Shown: positions 8,138 to 63,800 of the stretch, piece by piece
Layout of the letters: each line of letters opens with the position of its first letter
How positions within the stretch are numbered: position 1 is the first letter of the stretch
NCBI GenBank assembly: GCA_026874595.1
Contig: CM049308.1
Location: forward strand, 36,388,027 to 36,452,026
Direction: 5' to 3'
Origin: Sipunculus nudus
Lineage: Eukaryota; Annelida; Sipuncula; Golfingiida; Sipunculidae
Length of the DNA stretch: 64,000 nucleotides
Position numbers and translations under genes: made by a program
Notes under the pieces: generated by a model
Told to the model about the DNA's origin: nothing
What the model saw: only the letters and a program-made list of their open reading frames with translations
The model's database searches: none

Positions 8138-8358
8138 AATGGCGCTGCGATAGACCTTACGCAAAGTTATGTTCATTCCTCAAGATCTATTAGGAAATTA
8201 TGGACAAAGCCCCCTTAAAACACACTTGGCATCGTTTCCGACACTTTCAGAACAAAAAAGGGACATTTCCGAGATCAAGCCATGCACACTGGCGTTGCGT
8301 GACGAGATTTATTGCCAACACCGTCAGTTATTATATAGATTTTATTATTTACTACCAG

Positions 8359-8581
8359 GTTATCAGTATGCGGGACTGGTACAGAATTTCACGGACCTTG
8401 GTGCGCCTGGCCTGGGTTAAACCCTTGAGTTACATGTACTTCGTTGTGACGTTTTGCTGGGCTGTTCTGCTCAGCCCGCTAGCAATAATCGCCCCCACCT
8501 GGTACTGGCGACTGGAAGGACTGTTCTTCATGGGCCAGATGATCAAACTCAGCCACTGGATGCAGCTGGCCGGTTATAGAG
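8359..8581 (+). CDS. LPGAT1 exon with start codon (ATG 8368)
   Basis: The acceptor TTTACTACCAG precedes 8359 and the donor is G|GTGAAC. The first in-frame ATG after the acceptor is at 8368, and the pseudogene has the same acceptor, spacing and ATG. Open frame continues upstream of the acceptor, but similarity to the second copy stops there, so I take 8368 as the start. It encodes residues 1-71 with the first membrane segment and leaves phase 1. Confidence 0.88.
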
Positions 8582-11500
8582 GTGAACCTACAGCCACACA
8601 CACATACACACAGAATTCTCTGATTCGGTTTAATTTATTTGACATTTAGTGTTCACTTTTAAGCTGTTGTGTTCTGTATCGTTTCATTTAATTTAAAACA
8701 GGAATATGCATGATGTGTAATATCACCGGGTTTACATTATCAGCTCAGAGCTGTTGTGTTTTTTTTATTACGATTATGCTAAACTCATTGATATTAAAGC
8801 TTTCACGAACAGTCGTACTACACTGTATCAGGAAGTACGTCGGATAAGCCGATAACCATAGACTTACAGCTAACTTGGTACGCTCGAACAGCTTTAGAGC
8901 ACGTGCTTTAGTATGTTGAAATGTTGAAACATTTTCGTGTCTTCGAATTTAAATCGTACATATTGTAGAATGTTACCAGTTTAAAGCTTATTGATGGAAG
9001 GCAAGTCTTATTTTTACATCGCTGTTGTACTCTGACAGCTTTGGACACATTTGACATTTATGCACAATTTGAAATATTTATTCATCAGCACGTTGCATGG
9101 GGTCAGACGTTTATTCATAATTATATAATTAGGGCCCGCTTGAAAAGTGGTGCCCTATAGTGATCACCGTGTCAGTTCGTCCTTCCGTCCTTCCGTCTGT
9201 GACACTTTCTTTCGCGCGTGATAACTCAACAACAGCATACTACAGCTTTCCAGAATTCACAGGGATGGTTGGTACCTATGACCGCTCCAGACCTACCGAA
9301 TAACAGACCTGTCTGAATTGAAATATGGCCACCACAGCCCGATCGCTGTTTTTTTCGCACGTGATAACTGGACAACAACCTACTGCAGCTTTACCAAATT
9401 CACAGGGATGATTGGTACATATTATGGCTCTACATCTATAGAATTACAGACCTGTTGGAATTCCAATATGGCCACCACAACCCATTCGCTGATGTTCTCT
9501 CGCGCGCGATAACTCAACAACAACATTCTTTAGCTTCCAAAATTTACAGGGATGGTTGGTACATATAAGGGCTCCAGACTTATTAAATTACAGACCAGTT
9601 TGAATTGCAATATGGCCGCAACAGCCTGCTCGCTGATTTTCTTTTACATGCAAAAATTAACAACAACCTACCGCAGTTTTTCCAATTTCACAGGGATCAT
9701 TGGTGCCTTTGAGGGCTCCAGACCTATTGAATTACAGACTTGCTCAAAATCAAATATTGTTAACGGACTGCATTCGGTGATTTTCAATTACACATTATTT
9801 CAGACATATCTTCTTTAATATCATTTGATCGAGAAGGATTTTTTTCCCTCATGCATATGGATAAAAACCTGTTTCTGTTTGTCATATTTTTCAAATTTAA
9901 CTTAATTTTTCACCAATATGTAAACTATTCCAGCACTAGCAGTAGCGCGGGGCCCTCTGAGAACCATTGTCCGACCACATCTAGTTATGAATGATAATTT
10001 ATGAACATTTACCGGCTTTCATTTAATTTCAAAGGCCTTAGTTGTTTAACTACTGGCAACATACACATGAAATACCTCAGGCGTTTGGCGTCGATATTGT
10101 GTGGCCAGTGATGTTATATACTATATAAACAGCCACACGCTGCCCGGTGATTGTAGTTTCATGCCACCTTACACGTTGAGATATGCTAATTTTATTCCCT
10201 CCTCACTTTCCTGATAAATAAGAATGTTATATGATTAAATTTCTTCATTCCTAGAGAGAAATTTTTGCAAACTTTCTTTCTCCAGTATAAATCAAAACTC
10301 AATCAACAACCAGGCCTTTTTTGTTCCCTGATGTGATAACAGATTCTTATAAAGTTAAAATAACATATTTTAGACTGGCTTTTTAAACCGGTTTAGAGCC
10401 GACATACTAGCTTATTCTTTGTTCCACGAGGGCACACATAGTAACCGTTAGACCTAGAATCTTCTTACTTGACATCTGTAGATGTCACTAAAAATCTCCT
10501 ATGAAATTCAAAATAAGGTCACTGCAATCAATATTCTTTGAGTAACGGGGTTTGTTTACACCCCAAGAAATAATACTTTTTCCAGTAAATTTTGAAACAA
10601 AAGCTCCAATATCTCAATAATTAATGCATGGATTGCCTTCAAACCTTGCACAAATATTGATCACTTTTTTTAATCAGTTCATGAAGACTGCTGGCGCCAC
10701 CTGTTTTTTCTATTTTTAACGCATTTTCTCTCTTACTTTTGAGATCGTCAAATGACAGCAATCATTTCAGTTTCTCAGCCGTAGTTTCATCTAGTGTTCT
10801 GAAACCTTGTATGCTTTATGATCATCATTAGTTTTATGAGTTCCTAAAGCCTGGTGGCACCACCTGCATTTTTTTTTCTTTTTTTATACGCATATTTTCA
10901 TATATTTGAGACCGACAAATGACAGCTATAATGCTGTGGTTTCATCCTAGTGTTCTGATACCTATTGATCCTGATTTAACTTTTAAAAACAGAAGCAAAT
11001 GTTCAATCATGAGTAATATCATCATCACTGGTGCTGAATCTTGACAATCTTGTACCTAGTGACCCCTACCTATCATCGACTTCCAGTATTTAGGTCACAA
11101 TGACCTTATTTGGATAAATTCAAGGCTTCTGTACAGTGCCCTTAGTAAAACCTGTACCAAACACATAAATGCATCTATTACCAAACTATAGCCAATTTCA
11201 ACTAGTGGATCAGCTGAGAGACATTACATATGAGTCACTTGTTCTATCTAGAGATAATTTTCTTTAAAAAATATTTTTCAATAATTTTCTATGAAGCTTT
11301 ATGTTGAAGTGACGACCTTACACGACAACCAAGATTTTTATTATTAATCTACAGTTTTTGTTTCACTACTTTTTGGACTCTTTCCCATAATTTGCCAGAT
11401 TAGATTTGTCTCTACATGAGTAGTTATCTTTGTACGGAGCCCGGGAGACGACGGAGTAAAACATATTTATTACTTCGTGCCCACGGATTGCTAATTCGTG

Positions 11501-19612: not shown

Positions 19613-20541
19613 CTTGTTACGTTAGAAAATACTCCTGATCTTTGATACTCTGACGTAGGGAGTTTCAACTTAACGGTATACTCATTCCTGTATATTAAGT
19701 ATGTGACAAAAAGGTCAGTTTTTAGCGAGAACGAATCATTGTAGCATGTATCGGAAAATATTACAGTACGTGGCTAATATATATCAACACATTTACTGCA
19801 GAACAAATGATTGCATATGAGTATGCAGCTGTATTTTATTTACACGTTATTACTATTAGTTAATATTATGTAGTGGTCCCAAACGAAGGAGACCTCTAGT
19901 ACATGTGCACTGCTACTGCTATCCCACTTCCAAAATATATTAACCTAGTGTTAAGGTTTCTTTTGTTAACAATTTTTTTCCCAATAGGCGCGCCAGGCGC
20001 AAGCACTGGTATTTCATGTATGTAATAAGCATCTAAGGTACTCAATGTAATGACAAATTTTATTTTTCCAGGGATTTCACCACCTTTTAAATGGTTACTG
20101 GATTTTACCATATTTTACACAAAAGCTCTTGAAGTCCCGGACATTTTCACAGGGTGGCAAGAACCTTGTGACGTTTACGTTCACGTAAGGAAGTTTCTAG
20201 TCAAGGATATACCACTTGAAGAGGGAAGCCTCAAAGCTTGGATGTATGCTCGTTTTGAGGAAAAGGAACGCATGCTCGAACGGTTCCATAACGGATGCCA
20301 AGCTTCTCCGACGACGAAAGGTTGCAGAAAAGAAGTAGACAATGGTGGATTCACTGACGAAATACTGCGTCAGAAACGAAGCCAAGAAACCGGAGGTGAT
20401 GTAACGCCTGGCACCCTTCCGGCTAAACCAGAACGTATACCCGTATCGTTCACAACCATAATGACATTTCACACGTTTTTCTTATCTTCATTCCTGGCAT
20501 TTGTGTCTTGTTTTTATTACATAATAACGTCTGTTTGCTGA
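8359..20541 (+). CDS. LPGAT1-like lysophospholipid acyltransferase, intact (gene span)
   Basis: Predicted acyl-CoA:lysophosphatidylglycerol/lysophospholipid acyltransferase of the PlsC/AGPAT family, acting in the ER membrane. Five coding exons join with phases 1, 0, 2, 1 into 381 aa; human LPGAT1 has 370. Residues 20-47 are hydrophobic. The block I NHX4D motif is NHQYSID (H93, D98). Block III, FPEG in most members, reads HPEA at 174-177. LPRVGA (204-209) and the C-terminal half match LPGAT1, ending in a hydrophobic anchor near 350-378. A 5' UTR exon probably lies upstream because exon 2 follows an acceptor. Intron 1 is 5.9 kb and full of transposons. The closest relative is the broken copy at 28358-37971. 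Family identification is strong; substrate preference is inferred. Confidence 0.92.
8582..9126. other. Start of LPGAT1 intron 1
   Basis: AT-rich intron sequence with a short CACACACATACACAC patch at 8595. No other feature seen. Confidence 0.5.
9127..9988 (+). mobile_element. Inverted-end non-autonomous element with internal ~130-bp units
   Basis: Left end TAATTAGGGCCCGCTTG with CCCTATAGTGATCACC; right end GCGGGGCCCTCT..CCACATCTAGTTA. The GGGCCCGC / GCGGGGCCC ends are inverted. Inside are a GTCCTTCCGTCC patch and several units built on GCGATAACTCAACAACA..TTCACAGGGATGATTGGT..AATATGGCCACCACAGCC. It is the same family as 13683-14424. No coding capacity. Confidence 0.7.
9989..11432 (-). repeat. 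Diverged palindrome-family repeat in intron 1
   Basis: The segment at about 10440-10530 (AGACCTAGAATCTTCTTACTTGACATC and onward) is a minus-strand relative of the units at 44-46 kb. CTGGCGCCACCTG at about 10692 and CTGGTGGCACCACCTG at about 10851 are versions of the palindrome found there. The remainder is AT-rich without genes. Confidence 0.45.
11433..13347. mobile_element. 1.9-kb element with 20-bp perfect terminal inverted repeats
   Basis: TACGGAGCCCGGGAGACGAC at 11433-11452 is exactly complementary to 13328-13347. CTTTG occurs just outside both ends, with one extra base on the right, and may be a target duplication. Subterminal ATTCGTGCGCACGAAT palindromes occur near 11496 and 12742. The interior carries a LINE 3' fragment on the minus strand, so the element has captured it or been invaded by it. 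Confidence 0.7.
11892..12500 (-). mobile_element. LINE reverse-transcriptase C-terminal fragment, decayed
   Basis: Read on the minus strand, a segment resembling LYKSLIRPVLEC (about 12400-12450), then FYEIVNGLAPF, then FTRKDCRFSFLPTACKLWNS and IDSFKKNVRDYL is visible across frameshifts and stops. This is the typical 3' end of CR1/Jockey-type LINE ORF2. Only the last part is present. Confidence 0.6.
13348..13682. other. Intron 1 stretch without features
   Basis: No gene, repeat end or motif recognised between the two inverted-repeat elements. Confidence 0.4.
13683..14424 (+). mobile_element. Second copy of the GGGCCCGC-ended element
   Basis: Left end TTAATTAGGGCCCCGCTTG with CCCTATAGTGATCACC; right end ATGCGGGGCCCTCT..CCACATCTAGTTA. 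It has the same internal units as 9127-9988. Both copies sit in the same LPGAT1 intron, on the same strand. Confidence 0.72.
14527..14741 (+). CDS. LPGAT1 exon with NHX4D motif
   Basis: 215 nt between acceptor GTCCAG and donor CAC|GTAAGT; phase 1 in, phase 0 out. It encodes HLSGDDLWKIKDD, then the catalytic NHQYSID, and ends at LWLHGVLFLKH, equivalent to the LIHGDFF region of human LPGAT1. Confidence 0.92.
15059..17341 (-). mobile_element. LINE ORF2 remnant with zf-RVT end, interrupted
   Basis: On the minus strand, from right to left: a stretch with KISQFYGLKINKENGRC (16751-16999), then GDKGMLDFESFTEAQTMNWI (about 16100; compare the GGLGMPD..A..RWI region of LINE proteins), then NNMLFKLGILKNSKCKFCKQ and EETLTHLFHE (15059-15388), a zf-RVT-like C-x2-C..H segment. 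Frameshifts and stops are numerous. A different repeat at about 15412-15640 splits the last two parts. Lies in LPGAT1 intron 2. Confidence 0.6.
15412..15640 (-). mobile_element. Minus copy of the CTCAGCTGA-ended repeat family
   Basis: GCTCAGCTGACTGTAATGTG, CTATAGCGATCACCC and GTCCGTCCGGCCGTCCGG are the reverse complement of the right ends at 45830-45915 and 46230-46300. The following part, with GAACTTGTTACTTGACATCC and GAAACCTGAAATTAGG, matches their upstream units. It sits inside the LINE remnant. Confidence 0.7.
17342..18116. other. LPGAT1 intron 2, right part
   Basis: AT-rich intron sequence ending in the acceptor TTGCAG at 18116. No other feature recognised. Confidence 0.5.
18117..18253 (+). 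CDS. LPGAT1 exon with block III (HPEAG)
   Basis: 137 nt after acceptor TTGCAG; donor AA|GTACTC is weak but conserved as AA|GTACAT in the second copy. It encodes GKQYRDKQVAEIKEYF, then WPRGHRW and IMFHPEAGLL. The glutamate of the FPEG block is kept, while Phe and Gly are replaced by His and Ala. Confidence 0.9.
18679..18788 (+). CDS. LPGAT1 exon with LPRVGA
   Basis: 110 nt between acceptor ACTTTCAG and donor G|GTAGCA; phase 2 in, phase 1 out. It encodes YAVENGLPVWNYVMLPRVGA, matching the human segment around LPFLTHVTLPRVGA. Confidence 0.92.
18789..20071. other. LPGAT1 intron 4
   Basis: Contains a CGTCCGTTTGACGCCCGTCC-type patch near 19115 (likely a repeat end) and the AT microsatellite at 19543-19609. 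It ends in a pyrimidine tract and CCAG at 20071. No gene. Confidence 0.5.
19543..19609. repeat. (AT)n microsatellite
   Basis: About 33 uninterrupted AT dinucleotides in LPGAT1 intron 4. A run this long is likely to be length-variable. Confidence 0.97.
20072..20541 (+). CDS. LPGAT1 last coding exon
   Basis: The acceptor TTTTTCCAG precedes it; phase 1 in; stop TGA at 20539-20541. It encodes GISPPFKWLLDFTIFY, the VRKFLVKDIPLEEGSL..W stretch (human FPIGDVPLE..LTSWLY), a hydrophilic linker and the C-terminal hydrophobic anchor ending YYIITSVC. Confidence 0.93.
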
Positions 20542-50340: not shown

Positions 50341-50447
50341 TCATGGCACCTTTTTCTTTCTTTTGGCCTCCCATCTGTCAATCTCAAAACACGTTTGGGA
50401 GAAACAATAGAGGAAGAAGAAGAGAGTCAATGTAGCAACTGGCCAAC
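50341..50447 (-). CDS. HHAT last exon
   Basis: 107 nt; phase 1 in; stop TGA at 50341-50343. Encodes (G)WPVATLTLFFFLYCFSQTC, then FEIDRWEAKRKKKVP, matching human [20 protein letters not shown]. Its acceptor (TTTCTTGTTTGTGTTTCAG) is supplied by the first unit of the 54-bp array, and the exon start (GTTGGCCAG..CTCTTCTTCTTCC) resembles the unit itself. Confidence 0.9.
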
Positions 50448-53400
50448 CTGAAACACAAACAAGAAACAGTAGAAGAAGAGCCGGTGTGGGGCCTGGACAA
50501 CCTGAAACACAAACAAGAAACAGTAGAAGAAGAGCCAGTGTGGGACCTGGCCATATTGAAACACAAACAAGAAACAGTACAAGAAGAGCCTGGACAACCT
50601 GAAACACAAACAAGAAACAGTAGAAGAAGAGCCGGTGTGGGGCCTGGACAACCTGAAACACAAACAAGAAACAGTAGAAGAAGAGCCAGTGTGGGACCTG
50701 GACAACCTGAAACACAAACAAGAAACAGTAGAAGAAGAGCCGGTGTGGGGCCTGGACAACCTGAAACACAAACAAGAAACAGTAGAAGAAGAGCCAGTTT
50801 GGGACCTTGACAACCTGAAACACTAACAAGAAACAGTAGAAGAAAAGCCAGTGTGGGGCCTGGACAACCTGAAGCACAAACAAGAAACAGTAGAAGAAGA
50901 GCCAGTGTGGGACCTTGACGACCTGAAACACAAACAAGAAACAGTAGAAGAAGAGCTGGTGTGGGGCCTGGACAACCTGAAACACAAACAAGAAACAGTA
51001 GAAGAAGAGCCAGTGTGGGACCTGGCCAACTTGAAACACAAACAAGAAACAGTAGAAGAAGAGCCGGTGTGGGGCCTGGACAACCTGAAACACAAACAAG
51101 AAACAGTAGGAGAAGAGCCAGTGTTGGGCCTGGACAAACTGAAACACAAACAAGAAACAGTAGAAGAAGAGCTGGTGTGGGGCCTGGACAACCTGAAACA
51201 CAAACAAGAAACAGTAGAAGAAGAGCCAGTGTGGGGCCTGGACAACCTGAAAACACAAACAAGAAACAGTAGAAGAAGAGCCGGTGTGGGGCCTGGACAA
51301 CCTGAAACACAAACAAGAAACAGTAGAAGAAGAGCCAGTGATGGGCCTGGACAAACTGAAACACAAACAAGAAACTGTAGAAGAAGAGCCGGTGTGGGGC
51401 CTGGACAACCTGAAACACAAACAAGAAACAGTAGAAGAAGAGCCAGTGATGGGCCTGGACAACCTGAAGCACAAACAAGAAACAGTAGAAGAAGAGCTGG
51501 TGTGGGGCCTGGACAACCTGAAACACTAACAAGAAACAGTAGAAGAAAAGCCAGTGTGGGACCTTGACAACCTGAAGCACAAATAAGAAACAGTAGAAGA
51601 AGAGCCAGTGTGGGACCTTGACAACCTGAAACACAAACAAGAAACAGTAGAAGAAGAGCCAGTGTGGGACCTGGCCAACTTGAAACACAAACAAGAAACA
51701 GTACAAGAAGAGCCGGTGTGGGGCCTGGACAACCTGAAACACAAACAAGAAACAGTACAAGAAGAGCCAGTGATGGGCCTGGAAAAACTGAAACACAAAC
51801 AAGAAACAGTAGAAGAAGAGCCGGTGTGGGGCCTGGACAACCTGAAACACAAACAAGAAACAGTAGAAGAAGAGCCAGTGATGGGCCTGGACAAACTGAA
51901 ACACAAACAAGAAACCGTAAAAGAAGAGCCGGTGTGGGGGCTGGACAACCTGAAGCACAAACAAGAAAAAGTAGAAGAAGAGCCAGTGTTGGGCCTGGAC
52001 AAACTGAAACACAAACAAGAAACAGTAGAAGAAGAGCCGGTGTGGGGCCTGGACAACCTGAAACACAAACAAAAAACAGTAGAAGAAGAGCCAGTGATGG
52101 GCCTGGACAAACTGAAACACAAACAAGAAACTGTAGAAGAAGAGCCAGTGTGGGGCCTGGACAACCTGAAACACAAACAAGAAACAGTAGAAGAAGAGCC
52201 AGTGTGGGGCCTCGACAACCGGAAGCACAAACAAGAAACAGTAGAAGAAGAGCCAGTGATGGGCCTGGACAAACTGAAACACAAACAAGAAACAGTAGAA
52301 GAAGAGCCAGTGATGGGCCTGGACAAACTGAAACACAAACAATAAACTGTAGAAAAAGAGCCGGTGTGGGGGCTGGACAACCTGAAGCACAAACAAGAAA
52401 AAGTAGAAGAAGAGCCAGTGTTGGGCCTGGACAAACTGAAACACAAACAAGAAACAGTAGAAGAAGAGCCGGTGTGGGGCCTGGACTACCTGAAACACAA
52501 ACAAGAAACAGTAGAAGAAGAGCCAGTGATGGGCCTGGACAAACTGAAACACAAACAAGAAACTGTAGAAGAAGAGCAGGTGTGGGGGCTGGACAACCTG
52601 AAGCACAAACAAGAAAAAGTAGAAGAAGAGCCAGTGTTGGGCCTGGACAACCTGAAACACAAACAAGAAACAGTAGAAGAAGAGCCAGTGTTGGGCCTGG
52701 ACAACCTGAAACACAAACAAGAAACTGTAGAAGAAGAGCCAGTGTTGGGCCTGGACAAACTGAAACACAAGCAAGAAACAGTACAAGAAGAGCCAGTGTG
52801 GGCCCTAGACAACCTGAAACACAAACAAAAAACAGTAAAAGAAGAGCCAGTGTTGGGCCTGGACAACCTGAAACACCAACAAGAAACAGTAGAAAAAGAA
52901 CCAGAGTGGTGCCTGGACAACCTGAAACATAATTAAGAATAACAAATAAAAAAAGAGACCAAAGGGTGGTATGTTTTAATCTCTGCCATTCTGTGCTAGT
53001 TAGTGGGATAAAATAAAATAACCTAAGGAAACTAAAAATGCCTTTTCAGATATAGCCCAACACACAATGCACTATCTAATGGCTTCAAATCTAGCTGACA
53101 CATGTAACAGAGCAAGCCTTTCTTGAGTTAGTAAAAACATTTCATTCTTTATGCAAATACATCAATTTATTAATTTACTTATCAGGAAGATTAACAGCTC
53201 TTTGAACACAAAATTTTGCTTAAATTTCACCTCTTTTCATACTTATTAAATTTTCTTAGCTCTAAGGAACTGTTTGACATGATATGTATGCTAAAGTGTT
53301 AATATTTTATGAATCATCAAGAAAAAGTGGTAGAGACTATACTGGCTTGTAAAGCTGATCAACACATGAAAATTACAATCTACATACCATTAACAATGAT

Positions 53401-56400
53401 CCTCGTATGAAACAGAAGTCCTTTTTCATGTCCACCAAAGAAACAGAAGATGGCTACAGCAGACATGGCTGTGGCTGGGCAACACAAAGCAGCCCTTAGA
53501 CGCCTGGACATGGCTGGTGACAGTAACATGTTCTGTAAAAACATAATCACTGTTCATTATTTTTATATGTTTTCATCATAGTTTTCATAATAATACATGG
53601 TTTTTATGATACAATTTCATATTTTTTCTACAAGGGTGTTTTACTTTAAAAGAGAAATAATTAGGAACAATATTATGCTTATTCCTTCACACTATCAGTT
53701 CACCTTTGTTTTATACAAAAGTTTCCAGGCAAAACCACCAAAGTACACGGTCAATGTACTTCCCTTTGAGATGTTTAAACCTTGTTATGGTTTAGTGTGT
53801 TAGTAAACGAGGGTTCGCAGGTTTTACCCACCATCCAGGTTTCCTGGGTTTTACCAAGGTTGGGTAAAATAGGTTTTACCCAGGTTTTTTTTCAGACCCA
53901 TATTTTCCCCTAGTTTTAAACATTATTAATGTAAAACAAGGGACCCATGGGTCACATCGCTCAGCTGAATTTTTGAAAATATTAGTAACTGCAAAATATT
54001 TTTATTTCTTTTGGTTTTTCATGTATATTATCATTAGAAAAGCTATGAGAAAATGGCCCTGCTAAAATGAAACTCTGTAAATTATAGAATAATGGACATG
54101 AGCTATACCATTTAGTGATGCACCAAGGGAACAAATAGGCCTACGGTAAGTGTTATATAAAAGTAACATTTCATAAACAAATAATGTGTGAAGGTAATTA
54201 AGTTTTCAAAAGTTAAATATATGGCCATATGAGTTAAAAATTAATCCAACAAAGTTTGACCAATATTCCTAATTTTAATACTAAGTTAACAGTGTTACTC
54301 ACACCTAGGCCCTGCCAACTTTAAGAGATATGAATGAAATGCTACAAAGTATTTATATCTTCTTAAATCTTGTCAGTTAGCACTTACATTAGATCCTAAT
54401 ATTTTATCACATTTGAATATTATGATTAAATTCCTGAATTTTTTTTCTTTAAAACAATCAAAATTGTCCAAGTCTCATAAAAAAGAATTTATTTAACATT
54501 AAAATTATAAGATTCATCTTGTTTATTAGTCCTGTGTATTGAAGGGGTGGGTGGGGGGAGGGGTCTCCGTTACTGCTCGTTGCTGAAAAAAATGTTAATT
54601 TTAAGATTCATCTAGTTCATAGTACAGGTCTGTCAACAGAATAGGGGGGGGGGGGGAGCAGGAGATGCCAGAGAAAAAGGCTCCCTGTGGTATGGTATTA
54701 ACTGCAGACAGCCTGATCAAGCTCAACTCAGTGAATAGAGCTGCACTGAATGACCTACAATCACCAAAGTGGCCTGCTTGACAATGTAAGGGAATACAAC
54801 AAGAGCCTCCAAAATAAATTCAACTACTAGCCTAATTTTGCAGCTTTTATTTTCAAATTTCAGATTTTAACAGGTTAAATACTTATGTGCACATGCTGTG
54901 AAAATTAAATCCACAGTAATTACAGGAAAAAAAATGTGCCGTGGCCAAAGTTGGGCAAAATTTAAGGTACCAATTTTTATTTTTGCTAATATTTTAAAAA
55001 ATTTAAAAGATTTTGATCTAATTTTGGGTATACAATTTAATTTAGATTAATTAAAGTTATATTACTGGAATAAAGTCCTCAGCTTTAACATGTTTTGTGT
55101 TAAGCGATTAAATGTCTTTTCTGATTTTTTACAAAATGCATTATGTTTGAGCCCATATCTTTTTTAAATTATATAATACAGACCTTATTTCTGGCATGTA
55201 TATAGGAACTATATAGAGGAATATTTATGGTAAATATGAGGAAAAACAGATGAGTGGTTTTGATATTAGGCAGTCCTGAAGTGTGAAAATATGTTTTTAA
55301 TAAAAAAAATTGAGGTTTTCCCTTAATTTCTCAAAGGAACAAAGTCACAAAGACCCAGAAAGACCCAGTTTTCAGCTTGGTAGGAGATCTTTGGGACATC
55401 TAACATTATGCCAACAGCCTGGGAAGCATAGAGATATGCACTGAATGACCTACAGTCACCAAAGTGGACTGCTTGACAATGTAAGGGAATACAACAAGAG
55501 CCTCCAAAAAATTCAATAACTAGCCTAATTTTGCAGCTTTTATTTTCAAATTTCAGATTTTAACAGATTAAATCCTTATGTGTACATGCTGTGAAAATTA
55601 AATCCACAGTACTTACAGGAAAAAAACGCGCCGTGGCCAAAGTTGGGCAAAATTTAAGGTACCAATTTTATATTTTTGCCAATATTTAAAAAAATTTAAC
55701 AGATTTTGATCTTATTTTTGGTATACAATTAAATTTTGATTAATTAAAGTTGTATTACTGAAAAAAGTCCCTAACACTTTTGGTCTTAAGTGACCAAATA
55801 TCTTTCCTGATTTTTTTACAAAGTCCATTAGGTTTGGACCCATAACTTTTTTTAATTAAATAATACTGACTTTATTACTGGCATGTAAATAGGAACTATA
55901 TAGAGGAATATTTATGGTAAATATGAAGAAAACCAGATGAGTGGTTTTGATATTAGGCAGTCCTGAAGAATGAAAATAGATTTCTAATAAAAAATTGAGG
56001 TTTTCCCTTAATATCTCGAAGGAACGAAGTCCTATTGACCCAATTTTTGGCATGGTAGGAGATTTTGGGGACAGCTAACTGTATGCCGAATTTCAGGTTC
56101 GTAGGTCCAATGGTGTCAAAACATGCCAGTCTTACGGACGGACGTCCGGACGGACGGACAGACAGACGGACGAACGACGGACAATGGACCACGACTATAG
56201 CTCAGATGACTTATAGTCAGCTGAGCTAAAAAGACAACAATTGTATTATTTTAAACCACTTTATCCAACACAGTTTGATATACCGGTAGTATAGTAGAAT
56301 TCAGTGCATCCAGGTTATAGTACCTTAAGAGTCAGAGCAGCTCTAATCACTGTTACTGTGAAATAATAATGCAAACTAATGAAGGCAAAATGACTGATAG

Positions 56401-59400
56401 ATATATTTATATATTAATTTATATTTATATATTATATATATACATATATTTTCTAACAATTGGCACATTTAATAGGAAATCCGGGCACAATTAAATAGTC
56501 AATTGCATGCGGTCCTAATGTGAAAGAAAACAAGTATGTGGGCTTTCTCATTTCCCTAATGGTTGCACAGTTTGGTGTGGTTAAATCAATAAGAACTGAA
56601 CAAACTTTCAATGGAGCCAGAAGAAGCAACAGCAGTGTGAAGTTGTTTCATTAACTGCATGAAACATCCCTGTGGATTAGTGACGTGCTCTGCATAACCA
56701 AGCATGAAACATGTGAGACTGGAAAATGGCTGCCTTTTGACTGAGGTGGTCTGGTCAGAGCCATGTGGCTTACAACTAAAATTCATAAAATATATGTATA
56801 TTATGACTGCTAACCAACCAGGAAGAAACTAAGGTAGGATCCTGATGTATGATAAAAGCAGAAACACATGTCAAAAACCTGGGTAATTAATTGGGCAAAA
56901 ACCCTGGTTGAAACCTGGGTAAAACAAGGGTAAAACCCGGGTAAAATACTTTTTGCCCAGGTTTTACCTACCAAGTTGGGTAAAATAGGTTTTATCAGGG
57001 GTAAATATGAACCCTGTAGTAAACACAGGCCACATGTGTCTGTTTATGATAACAAGGCTATGTGACCAGAGTTCCTATTTTTGCATGCTTGACAGGTCCA
57101 AACTAGTCAATACATAACCTTTCATGTCCCCTAATATCTCTGCTGGATGGACATTACAGTCCATGGGCCGAATGTAAATTTATTGTAGAACCTGTGGCAA
57201 AATATTTGTCCAATAGGTTCAGGGGCCTCAGCGGAAATGACACGGGTAGCACAGGTTGTGTTTGGGTCTTAGGGCTGGGTCTCAGCAACATGCGATGTTT
57301 CAGCCAGAGGGAACATGTATTACATTTTTGGGGCCAAGTCAGTCAGAGCAGCTCCTGCAATTTTGTGTCCCAGGCTATGCACAGAAACTGACGATGTGTA
57401 ATGTTGAGGCCAATGATCTTGCCTGGTACACTCATGTACAGGAGTAAGCCAATGGTTTTAGGGCAATATTTTTGCAGGTACCAAATTACATAGAGAAGAC
57501 GCTATCTATTTTCCTGTTAATTCAACATGCTTTATAGGTGATTAGGCCCATTTCATGTTAGTATTTTAACTATTTTTTAACTATGACACACAAAACTATA
57601 TAGAAAAAATAAGAATTAGGTAAGATCAAGTAATTAACCTATCCACCACAGTGCTTATGCTCTAGCCCCTATGACCTAATTATGCTAATGAGCTCGAAAG
57701 ACGCTCCTACACAGGCTTTCCATTTATATGGTAGCGAGAGCTGTTTATAAGACAAAAGTGATGTCAGAAAGCTGTCACAATGGTCAGTTGCGTATGATGT
57801 CGCATTGACTGATGTCATCAGCTAGATTTGCTATATCTCTGTTCTTAAGAGAGAATATATCACTGGCCTTTCACAAATTTTGAATTTTTGGATAATGAAC
57901 ATTATTTTGTGATCACTTAAAGTCAAATCATGCATGTGAAATTCATAACAGTAAAGATTAAAAGTGTTTTTTATAAAATATTTAACTCCGGTCATTAATC
58001 ATTAAAGTTTTCCATCTGTACCATATTTGTCATACATTACCACAGGACCAATCAAATGTAGCTTGTGATCTCATCATAAAACTGACCTCAAACTCCTGCA
58101 CTCTCGGATGACATGCTATGTGATTCATGACTGTTTCCATGGTGATGCCAATTAGGTTGAAGAATACCCATACGAGGATGAACATTTCCGCTCCATGCCA
58201 GTAAAACACAAAGGCAAAACAGGAAACGGAGGCGAGGCACTGCCAGGTGATGCTGGATCTGCTGCCTCCAAGAGGGATGTATATGTACCTGTCATAAAAT
58301 TACCATAATTGGAAATGAAAGGCATCAAAGATGCCACAGTATAGAGTTCTACAGTCTACACATAGGCTATGTTTACTCCTCTTGAACAAGCCCGCATCCT
58401 TTAATGCAGATATACTGAAGTGCAACAAAGGTGATGTTCTTCAATGGTGAAGTCATATTTTTCAGTTGATTAATCTATCCAAAAAGAGGCTCGGACCTAT
58501 ACATATGCAACATTTCAAAGAAACAGGTCAATTGGCTTTTTATTCATTTTGCTCACGGGTAGTGTAGAAGACTTAGCCTGAGCTAAAAGTGTAACAGTAT
58601 AGTTACTTTGGTCATACCAAGTTTAACGGTTATCCACCAATTTACTTTTTAGATATCTACGCTTTCTGTGATTTTTATCCAAAGGAAAAAACTGATGGTA
58701 AAGGTCATTATCACAGTATAAGTCATTATCATGAAATGATAGTTTTATGAATATTTTAATATTTATCAAATCAAATTTCTCAAAAGATCAAATCTGTAAG
58801 TCATTGATCCTTTTCAACTTTTGCAATGAAACTGAAAAATGCTTATTGCACAATACCTTTTGATGAATTCATATAAGCCACGGTCAAACTCCCTGGAAAA
58901 ATATATCTTAAGCTGAACATGTATTTGCAAAATGTATATTGTACTGTCTCACTAAATGCCTGATAAAGCTGCTTACTATTGATCTAAGGTTATACTATCA
59001 AAACAATGTATAGCCAAATAGACGAAAAATATGCAATAAAACTAACGAAGCAAGCTGAAGGGTATTTATAAGGTTACATATGTAAAATTCAGTGCTGACA
59101 AAATAGGAACACACACATAGCTGAAGATACACAAATGATAGCTTGTTTACATGTTTAAATCATAATCATTTGCTTTTAATAATATTCATTTGATTTAACA
59201 AATTACAGTTTAACAGTTTTTACTAGTTTCTTATCATTTTTATTACTACTACCATTTAAGTTACAAATAAGAGCTTGCTATCAGACTAAATGAAAGAAAC
59301 TGCTTGGCATGAGACATGTCTTATTCTACAGTGACTAGATGGGATTAAAGGAACATACATATATAAAAACATATATATACTATAAAAAAAAATGTTGTCT

Positions 59401-60805: not shown

Positions 60806-63800
60806 AAGTGGCCCATGGGCCATGAAGCTCAGCTGAATTCAAGGAGCCTCCCAGAGTCAAAATCATGTATTTTGCCAATAGCCCTTGGATATAGGTTACA
60901 GTGACCTTAATCTACATGCAGCTGCTACCATTTATGCCCTCCTGATTAATTTAGTGTTAAAATCAAGTTCTTTCACACAGCTTGTAGAAAATGGGTCAGA
61001 GTGACATATCAGGTTTCCAAGGAGATTTTTAGGGACCTCTCTGAAAGTCATGTATGAGGATTTTAGGCCAAATGGATACAATTTGTGCCCCACCTGACTC
61101 ACTTGAAGCTCATGCTTTCTCATCTAATTTACAAAATATAGTTAGCCATGACCTAATTTCAATTTTCCAAGGATATTTTTCATGGAACTCTAAGGATATC
61201 AGTTAGAAGATTCTAGGTCCAACACTCATGATTTGTGCCCTGTTAATGGACAACTGCTTCATTTGAAGTTCTCAAAAAAGACATAAAAATGTGTAAAAAA
61301 AGTCGAAACTAGAATGGCTCTGTTTTTGCAGTGCAAAACAGATATATGTCTCTCCCCTATGGTTCATCCCAAAACATTAGGGGTAAAAATGCAATATCTC
61401 AAAACAATGAATCTAGATCTCAGCAGATTAGACTTTGAAGATCAAGGTCACTGCTTTTCAAACTCTGATGACATTTTGGCAGAAAAACTGGTGTGTCAAA
61501 TTTGAAGAAAAATCTTCACCACTTGCAAAATTATTGGTGTCACAATAAGCCTAGAATTGCATATGTTTTGACCTTGAAGATCAAGGTTCGAGGTCACAGG
61601 ATTTCTATCACATCCAAGATTTTGGTAGGAACAATGAGTGTTTCAAATTCTGGAGGAAAATATGCAGCACTTCAAAAGTTATCTTGTCCACAAGACAATA
61701 ACTATGATTCCACTGATTTGACCTTGAAGATCAAATCAAATTTTCCATTATTCTGACGTGTACTTCGGAGCCCCATAGCTCAGAGGTTATGGGTAACAGA
61801 GACCTAATTTCAAGTTTCCAAGGGGAATTTCCATTGGTCTCCCTGCATGTCAAGAGTGAAACCTAATTTCAGGTTTCCATGAAGACTTGTCATTGACCTC
61901 CCTGGTTGTCAAGTAAGAAGATTCTAGGTCAAACAGTGACAATTTGTGCCTTGATTACAGATGACTGCTTCATTTGAAGATCTCAAAAATAGGGGAAAAA
62001 AATGTGTGAAAATTAAACAAAATACAGGTTGGGCCACTAGTCTACAGGAATTGATGAAGCACTCCATGGTAGGAAGCAGGCATATTTAGATATTCAAAAA
62101 CAGAAGCTTTTGTATCACATTTTTAATTATTCTGGGGGTACTTACAAGCCCAATAGCTTGGAGGATATGGGTAACAGAGACCTATTTTCAGGTATCGATA
62201 AGGACTTTTCATTGACCTCTTTAGATGATGAGTTAGAAGATTCTAGGTCAAACAGTGATGATTTGTGCCCTGTTAACAGATGATGCTTTACTTGAATGGT
62301 CTCAAAAATAGAAAAAAATGCTTGAAAATTCGAAAAAAAACAGGTGGTGCCACCAGTCTGCAGGTACTGAAGAAATGGTCCATGATCAGTATGCATGCAA
62401 AACATCATGGTGATCAATGCATTAGTTATTCAGATACTAGAGCATTTGTATCAAATTTTCAATAATTCTGAGGGGTACTTTATGCCCTATAGCTCTGAGA
62501 ACATGACCTCATTTCACATTTCCTCATAGACTTTTCATGGACCTCCCTTGATGTCAAGTTAGAAGATTCCAAGTCCAGCAGTTATGATTCGTGCCATGTT
62601 AACAACTGATAACTTCTTTGAAGGTCTCAAAAATAGAGGGGAAAAAAAATCGTAAAAATCGAAAAAAATACAGGTGGCGCCACCAGACTGCAGAAATTGA
62701 TGACACATGCCATGATCAATATCCATGCAAAGAATCATGGTGGTCAATGCAATAGTTGTTCAGATACTTGAGCTTTTGTATCAAATTTTCCATTATTCTG
62801 GGGGGGTAGTTCGGAGCCCCATAGCTCAGAGGTTATGGGTAACAGAGACCTAATTTCAGGTTTCCAAAGAGACTTTTTAAGTGCCTCCCTGCATGTCAAG
62901 AGAGAAGATTCTAGGTCATGTCGTTACGATTTGTGCCCTGTTAACAGATTACCGCATCTTAAAGAGGTCTCAAAAATAGAGAAAAAATTGGTAAAAATCG
63001 AAAAAATACAGGTGGCGCCACCAGAGTGCAGAAACTGATGAAACATTCCATGATCAATATCCATGCAAAAAATCATGGTGATCAATGCAATAGTGGTTCA
63101 GTTACTTGAGCTTTTGTATCAAATTTTCCATTATTCTGGGGGGTACTTCGGAGCCCCATAGCTTAGAGGTTATGGGTAACAGAGACCTAATTTCAGGTTT
63201 CCAAGGGGAATTTCCATTGGTCTCCCTGCATGTCAAGAGTGAAACCTAATTTCAGATTTCCATGAAGACTTGTCATTGACCTCCCTGGTTGTCAAGTAAG
63301 AAGATTCTAGGTCAAACAGTGACAATTTGTGCCTTGTTATCAGATGACTGCTTCATTTGAAGATCTCAAAAATAGGGGAAAAAATGTGTGAAAATTAAAC
63401 AAAATACAGGTTGGGCCACTAGTCTACAGGAATTGATGAAGCACTCCATGGTAAAAAGCAGGCAAAGAATCATAGCAATTAATGATTTAGATATTCAAAA
63501 ACAGAAGCTTTTGTATCACATTTTTAATTATTCTGGGGGTACTTACAAGCCCAATAGCTTGGAGGATATGGGTAACAGAGACCTATTTTCAGGTATCGAT
63601 AAGGACTTTTCATTGACCTCTTTAGATGATGAGTTAGAAGATTCTAGGTCAAACAGTGATGATTTGTGCCCTGTTAACAGATGATGCTTAACTTGAATGG
63701 TCTCAAAAATAGAAAAAAATGCTTGAAAATTCGAAAAAAAAAACAGGTGGTGCCACCAGTCTGCAGGTACTGAAGAAATGGTCCATGATCAGTATGCATG

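Follow-up and report, generated by a model that had tools for sequence, protein, structure and literature searches.

The HHAT locus and the array in its last intron

We analyzed a 64-kb window of the Sipunculus nudus genome (C3:36388027-36452026 of the 1.43-Gb assembly); positions given without a contig are window positions. The last two exons of a minus-strand gene, encoding 83 residues, match residues 419 to 482 of human HHAT (E about 1e-10). Pfam assigned this tail alone to no family and placed MBOAT matches upstream of it on the same strand. By these matches, the gene with the array-bearing last intron is HHAT. The edges of the penultimate exon were set from sequence and frame. Directly after it comes GTATGT at 53387, and the reading frame fixes this as the donor and 50448/50447 as the last junction. 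The main features of the gene are as follows.

50341..50447, minus strand: last HHAT coding exon, WPVATLTLFFFLYCFSQTCFEIDRWEAKRKKKVP and stop (from sequence, frame, and human HHAT match)
50448..53387, minus strand: last HHAT intron, phase 1, 2,940 nt, of which 2,474 nt are array (sequence and unit table)
53388..53532, minus strand: penultimate HHAT exon, 145 nt, ending in phase 1 (sequence, open frame, and human HHAT match)
58033..58299, minus strand: approximate MBOAT-core exon of the same gene (YIYIPLGGS...YWHGAEMF), from Pfam and translation, given as an open stretch only, with exon edges not fixed; its Pfam match (C3:36446140-36446388) crosses one stop

On the opposite strand, an exon with an Acyltransf_C domain (20029-20541, plus strand; E 2.7e-11) marks a lipid acyltransferase gene. 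Our guess is that the open frame at 8194-8649, which has no family match, is another exon of that gene.

The earlier note had described a minisatellite of about 46 copies of 54 bp adjoining the last HHAT exon, and this was confirmed. Tandem Repeats Finder (TRF) places the array at 50439-52929 and gives it a period of 54, 46.3 copies, 89% matches, and a score of 4028. Cutting the minus-strand array at the acceptor yielded 46 units bounded by 47 unit ends; 44 of the units are exactly 54 bp long. Each unit consists of an exon-like part and a 14-nt intron tail, TGTTTGTGTTTCAG.

50448..52921, minus strand: minisatellite with 46 units, all 54 bp long except one of 55 and one of 43 (TRF and unit table)
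52922..52981, minus strand: left edge, the non-repeat end of the intron with a T-rich tract, TTTAT (yUnAy) 25 nt upstream, and the acceptor TTATGTTTCAG
51247..51301, minus strand: 55-bp unit (ends at 51247), 1-nt insertion, TTTTCAG (unit table)
50556..50598, minus strand: 43-bp unit (ends at 50556), 11 bp short, acceptor AG lost (CAA; unit table)
50502..50503, minus strand: the only intact upstream acceptor that retains the HHAT C-terminus, adding 18 aa, GCPGPTPALLLLFLVCVS (frame reading)

The left-edge acceptor at 52922 may retain the ancestral acceptor context. The statement that almost every unit ends in the 18-mer TTCTTGTTTGTGTTTCAG was too strong: the exact 18-mer closes 28 of the 47 unit ends, and all 47 come within three mismatches of it, with the 55-bp unit scored one base away from its AG. 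The AG itself is kept at 43 of 47 ends and lost at 52220, 51680, 51031, and 50556.

We searched the 1.43-Gb assembly with a 401-base array probe, ignoring simple repeats and very common words, and all 10 matches lay inside the HHAT array. The exact 18-mer has two further single matches elsewhere. A dispersed repeat family was rejected, as no second array was detected in the assembly, and since nothing similar was found elsewhere, the HHAT array was probably born in place. At gathering thresholds, Rfam gave no match within the 64-kb window. An HHAT paralogue that could serve as an outgroup was also sought, and none was useful; the sole match outside the gene had an E value of 0.36 at 31% identity.

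Acceptors and reading frames in the array

We scored the unit ends with a general 3'-splice-site weight matrix and with yUnAy, a common branch-point motif; neither was trained on the host genome. By this matrix 41 of the 47 unit acceptors score at least 8.5 (rounded), which supports the view that most units resemble acceptors. The exon-adjacent acceptor at 50448 scores 11.1, and to one decimal 27 of the 47, itself included, score at least as high. The window and a further 17 stretches of 10 kb, arbitrarily placed, contain 25,191 AGs, of which 61 reach 11.1, the array's own included. The same 234 kb contains 64 minisatellites with a period of at least 15; three of them, HHAT array included, have a unit acceptor this strong, and among those with units of up to 60 bp only the HHAT array does. 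It had also been claimed that the last exon takes its acceptor from the final unit of the array. This holds, with the frame fixing the junction 50448/50447 at the array end, and it has to hold because the array adjoins the exon. Strand, phase, and position therefore amount to one coincidence, not three.

The branch point suggested in TCTACT fared less well. Its A does sit 22 nt ahead of the final G, but the surrounding bases depart from yUnAy, with C in place of U. At 15 to 50 nt upstream, yUnAy was found at only 4 of the 47 unit ends (52922, 52814, 52328, and 51896), compared with 227 of 353 strong AG sites elsewhere, which does not support a good branch point in each unit; the units being copies, this count is close to a single draw. 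The motif is present at the left-edge acceptor, 52922, and absent at 50448; going by this difference, the first acceptor may be the one used. The AG is no better conserved than the unit average: the mean divergence of 5.05% predicts 90% of the AGs to be intact, close to the 43 of 47 found.

With so many strong acceptors, a good part of the transcripts might include array sequence as exon. Entry would then be at upstream units, above all 50502 or 52922, and HHAT tails would carry 18-residue Leu-rich repeats or be frame shifted. The scores of the acceptors, 27 of them at least equal to 50448 (itself counted), fit such use, as does the branch-point motif that 52922 has and 50448 lacks. All three minus-strand frames are open over long stretches, and the stops reached would fall in the last exon and so would presumably escape junction-dependent decay. 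However, only 2 of the 43 intact acceptors, 50448 and 50502, lead to the normal HHAT C-terminus, because the 43-bp and 55-bp units shift the frame; every other intact upstream acceptor leads to a stop at 50384 or 50823. The phase of the repeat, said to suit splicing, thus does so only locally, and every intact acceptor farther upstream than 50502 is thrown out of the HHAT frame by the 43-bp unit and the 1-nt insertion. Nor do the differences among units look coding in the HHAT frame, where 11 of 38 changes are synonymous and 11.6 are expected. Amphioxus repeats of the same kind are, in the available portions of the reports, described as splicing regularly (PMC3087553, PMC3902484). We consider exon use unlikely. 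A coding array on either strand was rejected, since the largest synonymous count of the six frames (plus strand) is 12 of 38 against 8.4 expected, no clear excess, and two indels interrupt the frames.

The reading we favor is that the donor at 53387 is most likely joined to the exon-adjacent acceptor at 50448 in most transcripts, and that the remaining array would be tolerated intron. The unremarkable AG retention and the absence of a coding-like bias in the HHAT frame are as expected for tolerated intron.

Similarity of the unit to the exon start

The last exon starts GTTGGCCAGTTGCTACATTGACTCTCTTCTTCTTCCTCTATTGTTTCT, and the consensus unit starts GTTGTCCAGGCCCCACACTGGCTCTTCTTCTACTGTTTCT. In the register of the junction, 17 of the first 24 exon nucleotides equal the unit, compared with 12 of 24 in the second-best of the 54 phases, so the resemblance reported in the earlier note was borne out. 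When 48 nt are compared, shifting the phase by 8 yields 26 matches, one more than the 25 of the junction register, which is what an 8-nt indel would give, and the exon-unit alignment requires an 8-nt gap. When the exon was dinucleotide-shuffled 5000 times, no shuffle matched the ungapped running identity score (maximized over length), nor did any of the 53 other phases of the unit; this supports the proposal that an intron/exon junction was amplified. With gaps allowed and the alignment anchored at the junction, 1 of 3000 shuffles reached the observed score, and with an earlier version of this score 0 of 800 sampled AGs on the minus strand of the window reached the exon-unit value.

Past the first 9 exon nucleotides the anchored similarity is modest, its score being reached by 47 of 3000 shuffles; in another run 19 of 600 shuffles reached it, as did 2 of 800 AG sites. 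Unanchored local alignments were weaker or shifted. Under strict scoring, 12 of 2000 shuffles and 3 of 6,130 window tiles reached their score; under loose scoring it was 67 of 2000 and 8 of 6,130. We ran the register test because these weak local scores counted against homology, and the junction register was thus tested post hoc, after they had been seen. Because random synonymous recoding of the exon reached the observed DNA score in 55 of 600 cases, exon and unit are no more alike as DNA than as peptides. The score of the unit peptide GCPGPTLALLLLFLVCVS was reached by 16 of 5000 shuffles against the exon peptide GWPVATLTLFFFLYCFS and by 26 of 5000 against the human HHAT segment. From these alignments we conclude that the unit is probably the exon start, copied together with the intron tail and since diverged.

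We infer that a tandem duplication crossed the last intron/exon junction of HHAT and was then amplified to about 46 copies. Each unit would combine ~40 nt from the exon start with ~14 nt from the intron end, in a copy that has since diverged. The sense strand of the exon is rich in C and T because its codons specify a hydrophobic helix (Leu, Phe, Tyr, Cys, and Ser). The sequence suggests that in each unit the exonic part provides a pyrimidine tract for the AG that follows it, and a 54-bp duplication would in this way bring a nearly complete acceptor along. Period, phase, and strand would then all suit splicing because a single tandem duplication crossed the junction. Their combination, called unusual in the earlier note, is less so, since all three follow from one such event and junction repeats recur in this genome. 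We give a probability of about two in three to this reading as a whole: a minisatellite of the type known from amphioxus as a mirage, in which a junction-crossing duplication was amplified to ~46 copies, the intron was tolerated, and 50448 is mostly used.

Alternatively, a C/T-rich intron repeat could have grown up to the exon, its partial last copy GTTGGCCAG overlapping the exon by chance. Tandem repeats are dense in the genome, covering 7,606 of 71,040 flank bases around the exons sampled below and 28,522 of 163,200 bases in the 17 stretches, and the similarity beyond 9 nt is modest. The agreement of register, frame, and peptide weakens this explanation, which we hold to be quite improbable.

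The 44 full units fall into 34 distinct types. Units differ on average at 3.83 positions at lag 2 and at 5.00 at lag 1, and this alternation of unit types amounts to a higher-order period of 108 bp, which ordinary unequal exchange would produce. The exon copy lies far from the unit consensus. Three of the four AG-less units (51680, 51031, and 50556) have TTTCAA, and in each case the next unit carries the exon-like GGCC, in the context GTTGGCC twice and TATGGCC once; perhaps this is a sub-type spread as a block.

Positions 22-54, with the pyrimidine tract and AG, diverge 2.6% from the consensus, compared with 8.9% for positions 1-21; the 33 positions of the former hold 18 distinct variants and the 21 of the latter hold 20 (Fisher p = 0.058). 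This would fit selection on each unit as a splicing regulator, either acceptor decoy or factor sink, but such selection is very improbable given an AG kept no better than average and lost in 4 of 47, and six single-unit changes at pyrimidine positions of 22-54 of which three remain pyrimidine (hand count).

Junction repeats at other exons and in other animals

We inspected 68 exon loci, some from shared genes, with exon edges placed by eye. The sample comprised 13 of the 15 MBOAT matches and 15 of the 17 HDAC matches listed on contigs C1-C17 (of the four left out, two overlap sampled loci), and 40 short exons hand-picked from the 138 kinase matches listed. Locus L122 is part of HHAT, and L128 probably is. 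A direct repeat was counted when it touched the exon match or the 60 nt beside it. This was the case at 3 of the 28 MBOAT and HDAC loci and at 6 of the 40 kinase loci.

Firm junction-spanning repeats were found at 3 of the 68 loci. At L150 (C4:93861213-93862446, minus strand), the 3' end of a protein-kinase exon and its donor, AAG|GTAGATA, recur at exactly 65-bp spacing in at least 8 copies, the real donor included, all behind exon-like bases, and the array reaches the end of the examined stretch; by its sequence this is a donor-side mirage array. At L143 (C1:18857813-18859359, minus strand), the 3' end and donor of an HDAC-type exon are duplicated, over ~90 bp, into the next intron. At L126 (C5:40070610-40072177, plus strand), a MBOAT-family exon has upstream a decayed acceptor-side copy that includes exon bases (69% identity, E 5e-11), with a 63-bp array of five copies beyond it. 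Among the other loci, L170 has 30 nt of its exon start repeated, a weak match (E 3e-4); L126 and L170 were judged from BLAST matches and reading of the sequence. At L172 the acceptor is the last of several repeats that contain no exon bases, and at L123, L145, L146, and L161 the repeats are merely near the exon.

Direct repeats covered 221 of the 13,557 bases in exon matches, 453 of the 8,160 at their edges, and 7,606 of 71,040 bases more than 60 nt out, compared with 28,522 of 163,200 bases in the 17 other stretches. Exon edges at the 68 loci were thus not enriched in direct repeats relative to the flanks and the 17 stretches, which indicates that tandem duplication is common in this genome and strikes junctions no more than other sequence. 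The junction repeats that survive are presumably tolerated.

Two side observations concern the assembly. Tandem arrays with a period of ~338-339 bp occur at three mutually distant places (window 62105-63243, L009 8138-9967, and L018 28-8416) and, grouped by period alone, are possibly one satellite family. Contigs C60, C61, C62, C66, C72, C74, C75, C89, and others look bacterial. C61 is 2.2 Mb long, C72 2.1 Mb, and C89 3.3 Mb, and the COX1 and HDAC genes on these bacterial-looking contigs lack introns and score equally or nearly so. Among the records compared, the best match to a biotin carboxylase of C61 is 66% identical and comes from an uncultured Spirochaetia metagenome-assembled genome (MAG). 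They possibly represent several strains of a symbiont.

In amphioxus, minisatellite-like duplications of intron/exon boundaries have been termed mirages (PMC3087553). According to the accessible portions of two reports, they occur in Adh3, the globins BflGb6 and BflGb9, TnC, and PGBD5, the last with 60- and 108-bp repeats at splice sites in a lancelet (PMC3902484); AG/GT signals are kept in many but not all copies, the copies of a cluster, those at its boundary excepted, evolve in concert, and length is unstable between haplotypes (PMC3087553, PMC3902484). RT-PCR suggested regular splicing (PMC3087553). As far as the available text goes, the BflGb6 unit, like that of HHAT, repeats the 3' end of an intron and the 5' part of an exon, with 6 and 3 units compared with 46 in HHAT (PMC3087553). 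The HHAT array is built like a mirage in two defining features: its tandem units span an intron/exon boundary (17 of 24 matches and 0 of 5000 shuffles, weaker past 9 nt with 47 of 3000), and splice signals are kept in many but not all units (AG in 43 of 47). Judged against the portions of these reports at hand, it belongs to an already known kind and is large beside the published cases compared. Those cases are all from cephalochordates. In the present assembly an amphioxus-derived green fluorescent protein (GFP) gave no match below E 0.001, the best one having E 0.004 and 5 stops; the families PF01353 (GFP) and PF14830 (haemocyanin, linked to molluscs) gave no match, but neither did their controls, so this does not establish absence.

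Junction repeats have also been described in human genes. The available text on CBS gives a 31-bp variable-number tandem repeat (VNTR), c.1444_1467+7, at a donor with 16-21 copies, and a 68-bp junction duplication, c.844_845ins68, in which the distal site is strongly favored (PMC2630376). Judged by its name, the VNTR crosses an exon-intron boundary as the HHAT array does, at a donor instead of an acceptor, and ins68 is a single duplication (PMC2630376). In human segmental duplications, splicing can be altered through novel introns where internal tandem repeats lie at exon-intron boundaries; this work, in the part available, is a survey of paralogues and does not describe an acceptor array like that of HHAT (PMC2812944). 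Among the matches listed in our literature search, in the portions available, there was no other acceptor array of this size.

The human IFI6 (6-16) gene reportedly has a minisatellite with multiple splice donors, to go by the title of Turri et al. 1995. Its units would thus offer splice sites, as those of HHAT do, but donors.

We regard it as a long shot that junction minisatellites are a genome-wide habit outside amphioxus and that the spliceosome chooses among the 43 near-identical HHAT acceptors, copy number setting the mix of tails. HHAT tails would in that case be normal, longer by 18 aa, or frame shifted and Leu rich. With dozens of nearly identical acceptors, this one natural intron offers a ready-made test of acceptor choice, in which one could ask whether the first AG past the branch point, the AG nearest the exon, or exon signals decide. 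The array also suggests why some junctions multiply: where an exon opens with the C/T-rich codons of a hydrophobic helix, a copy of it can serve as the tract of the next acceptor. If the sampled frequency of 3 in 68 holds, this genome would be a possible second place, besides amphioxus, for studying intron change by junction duplication.
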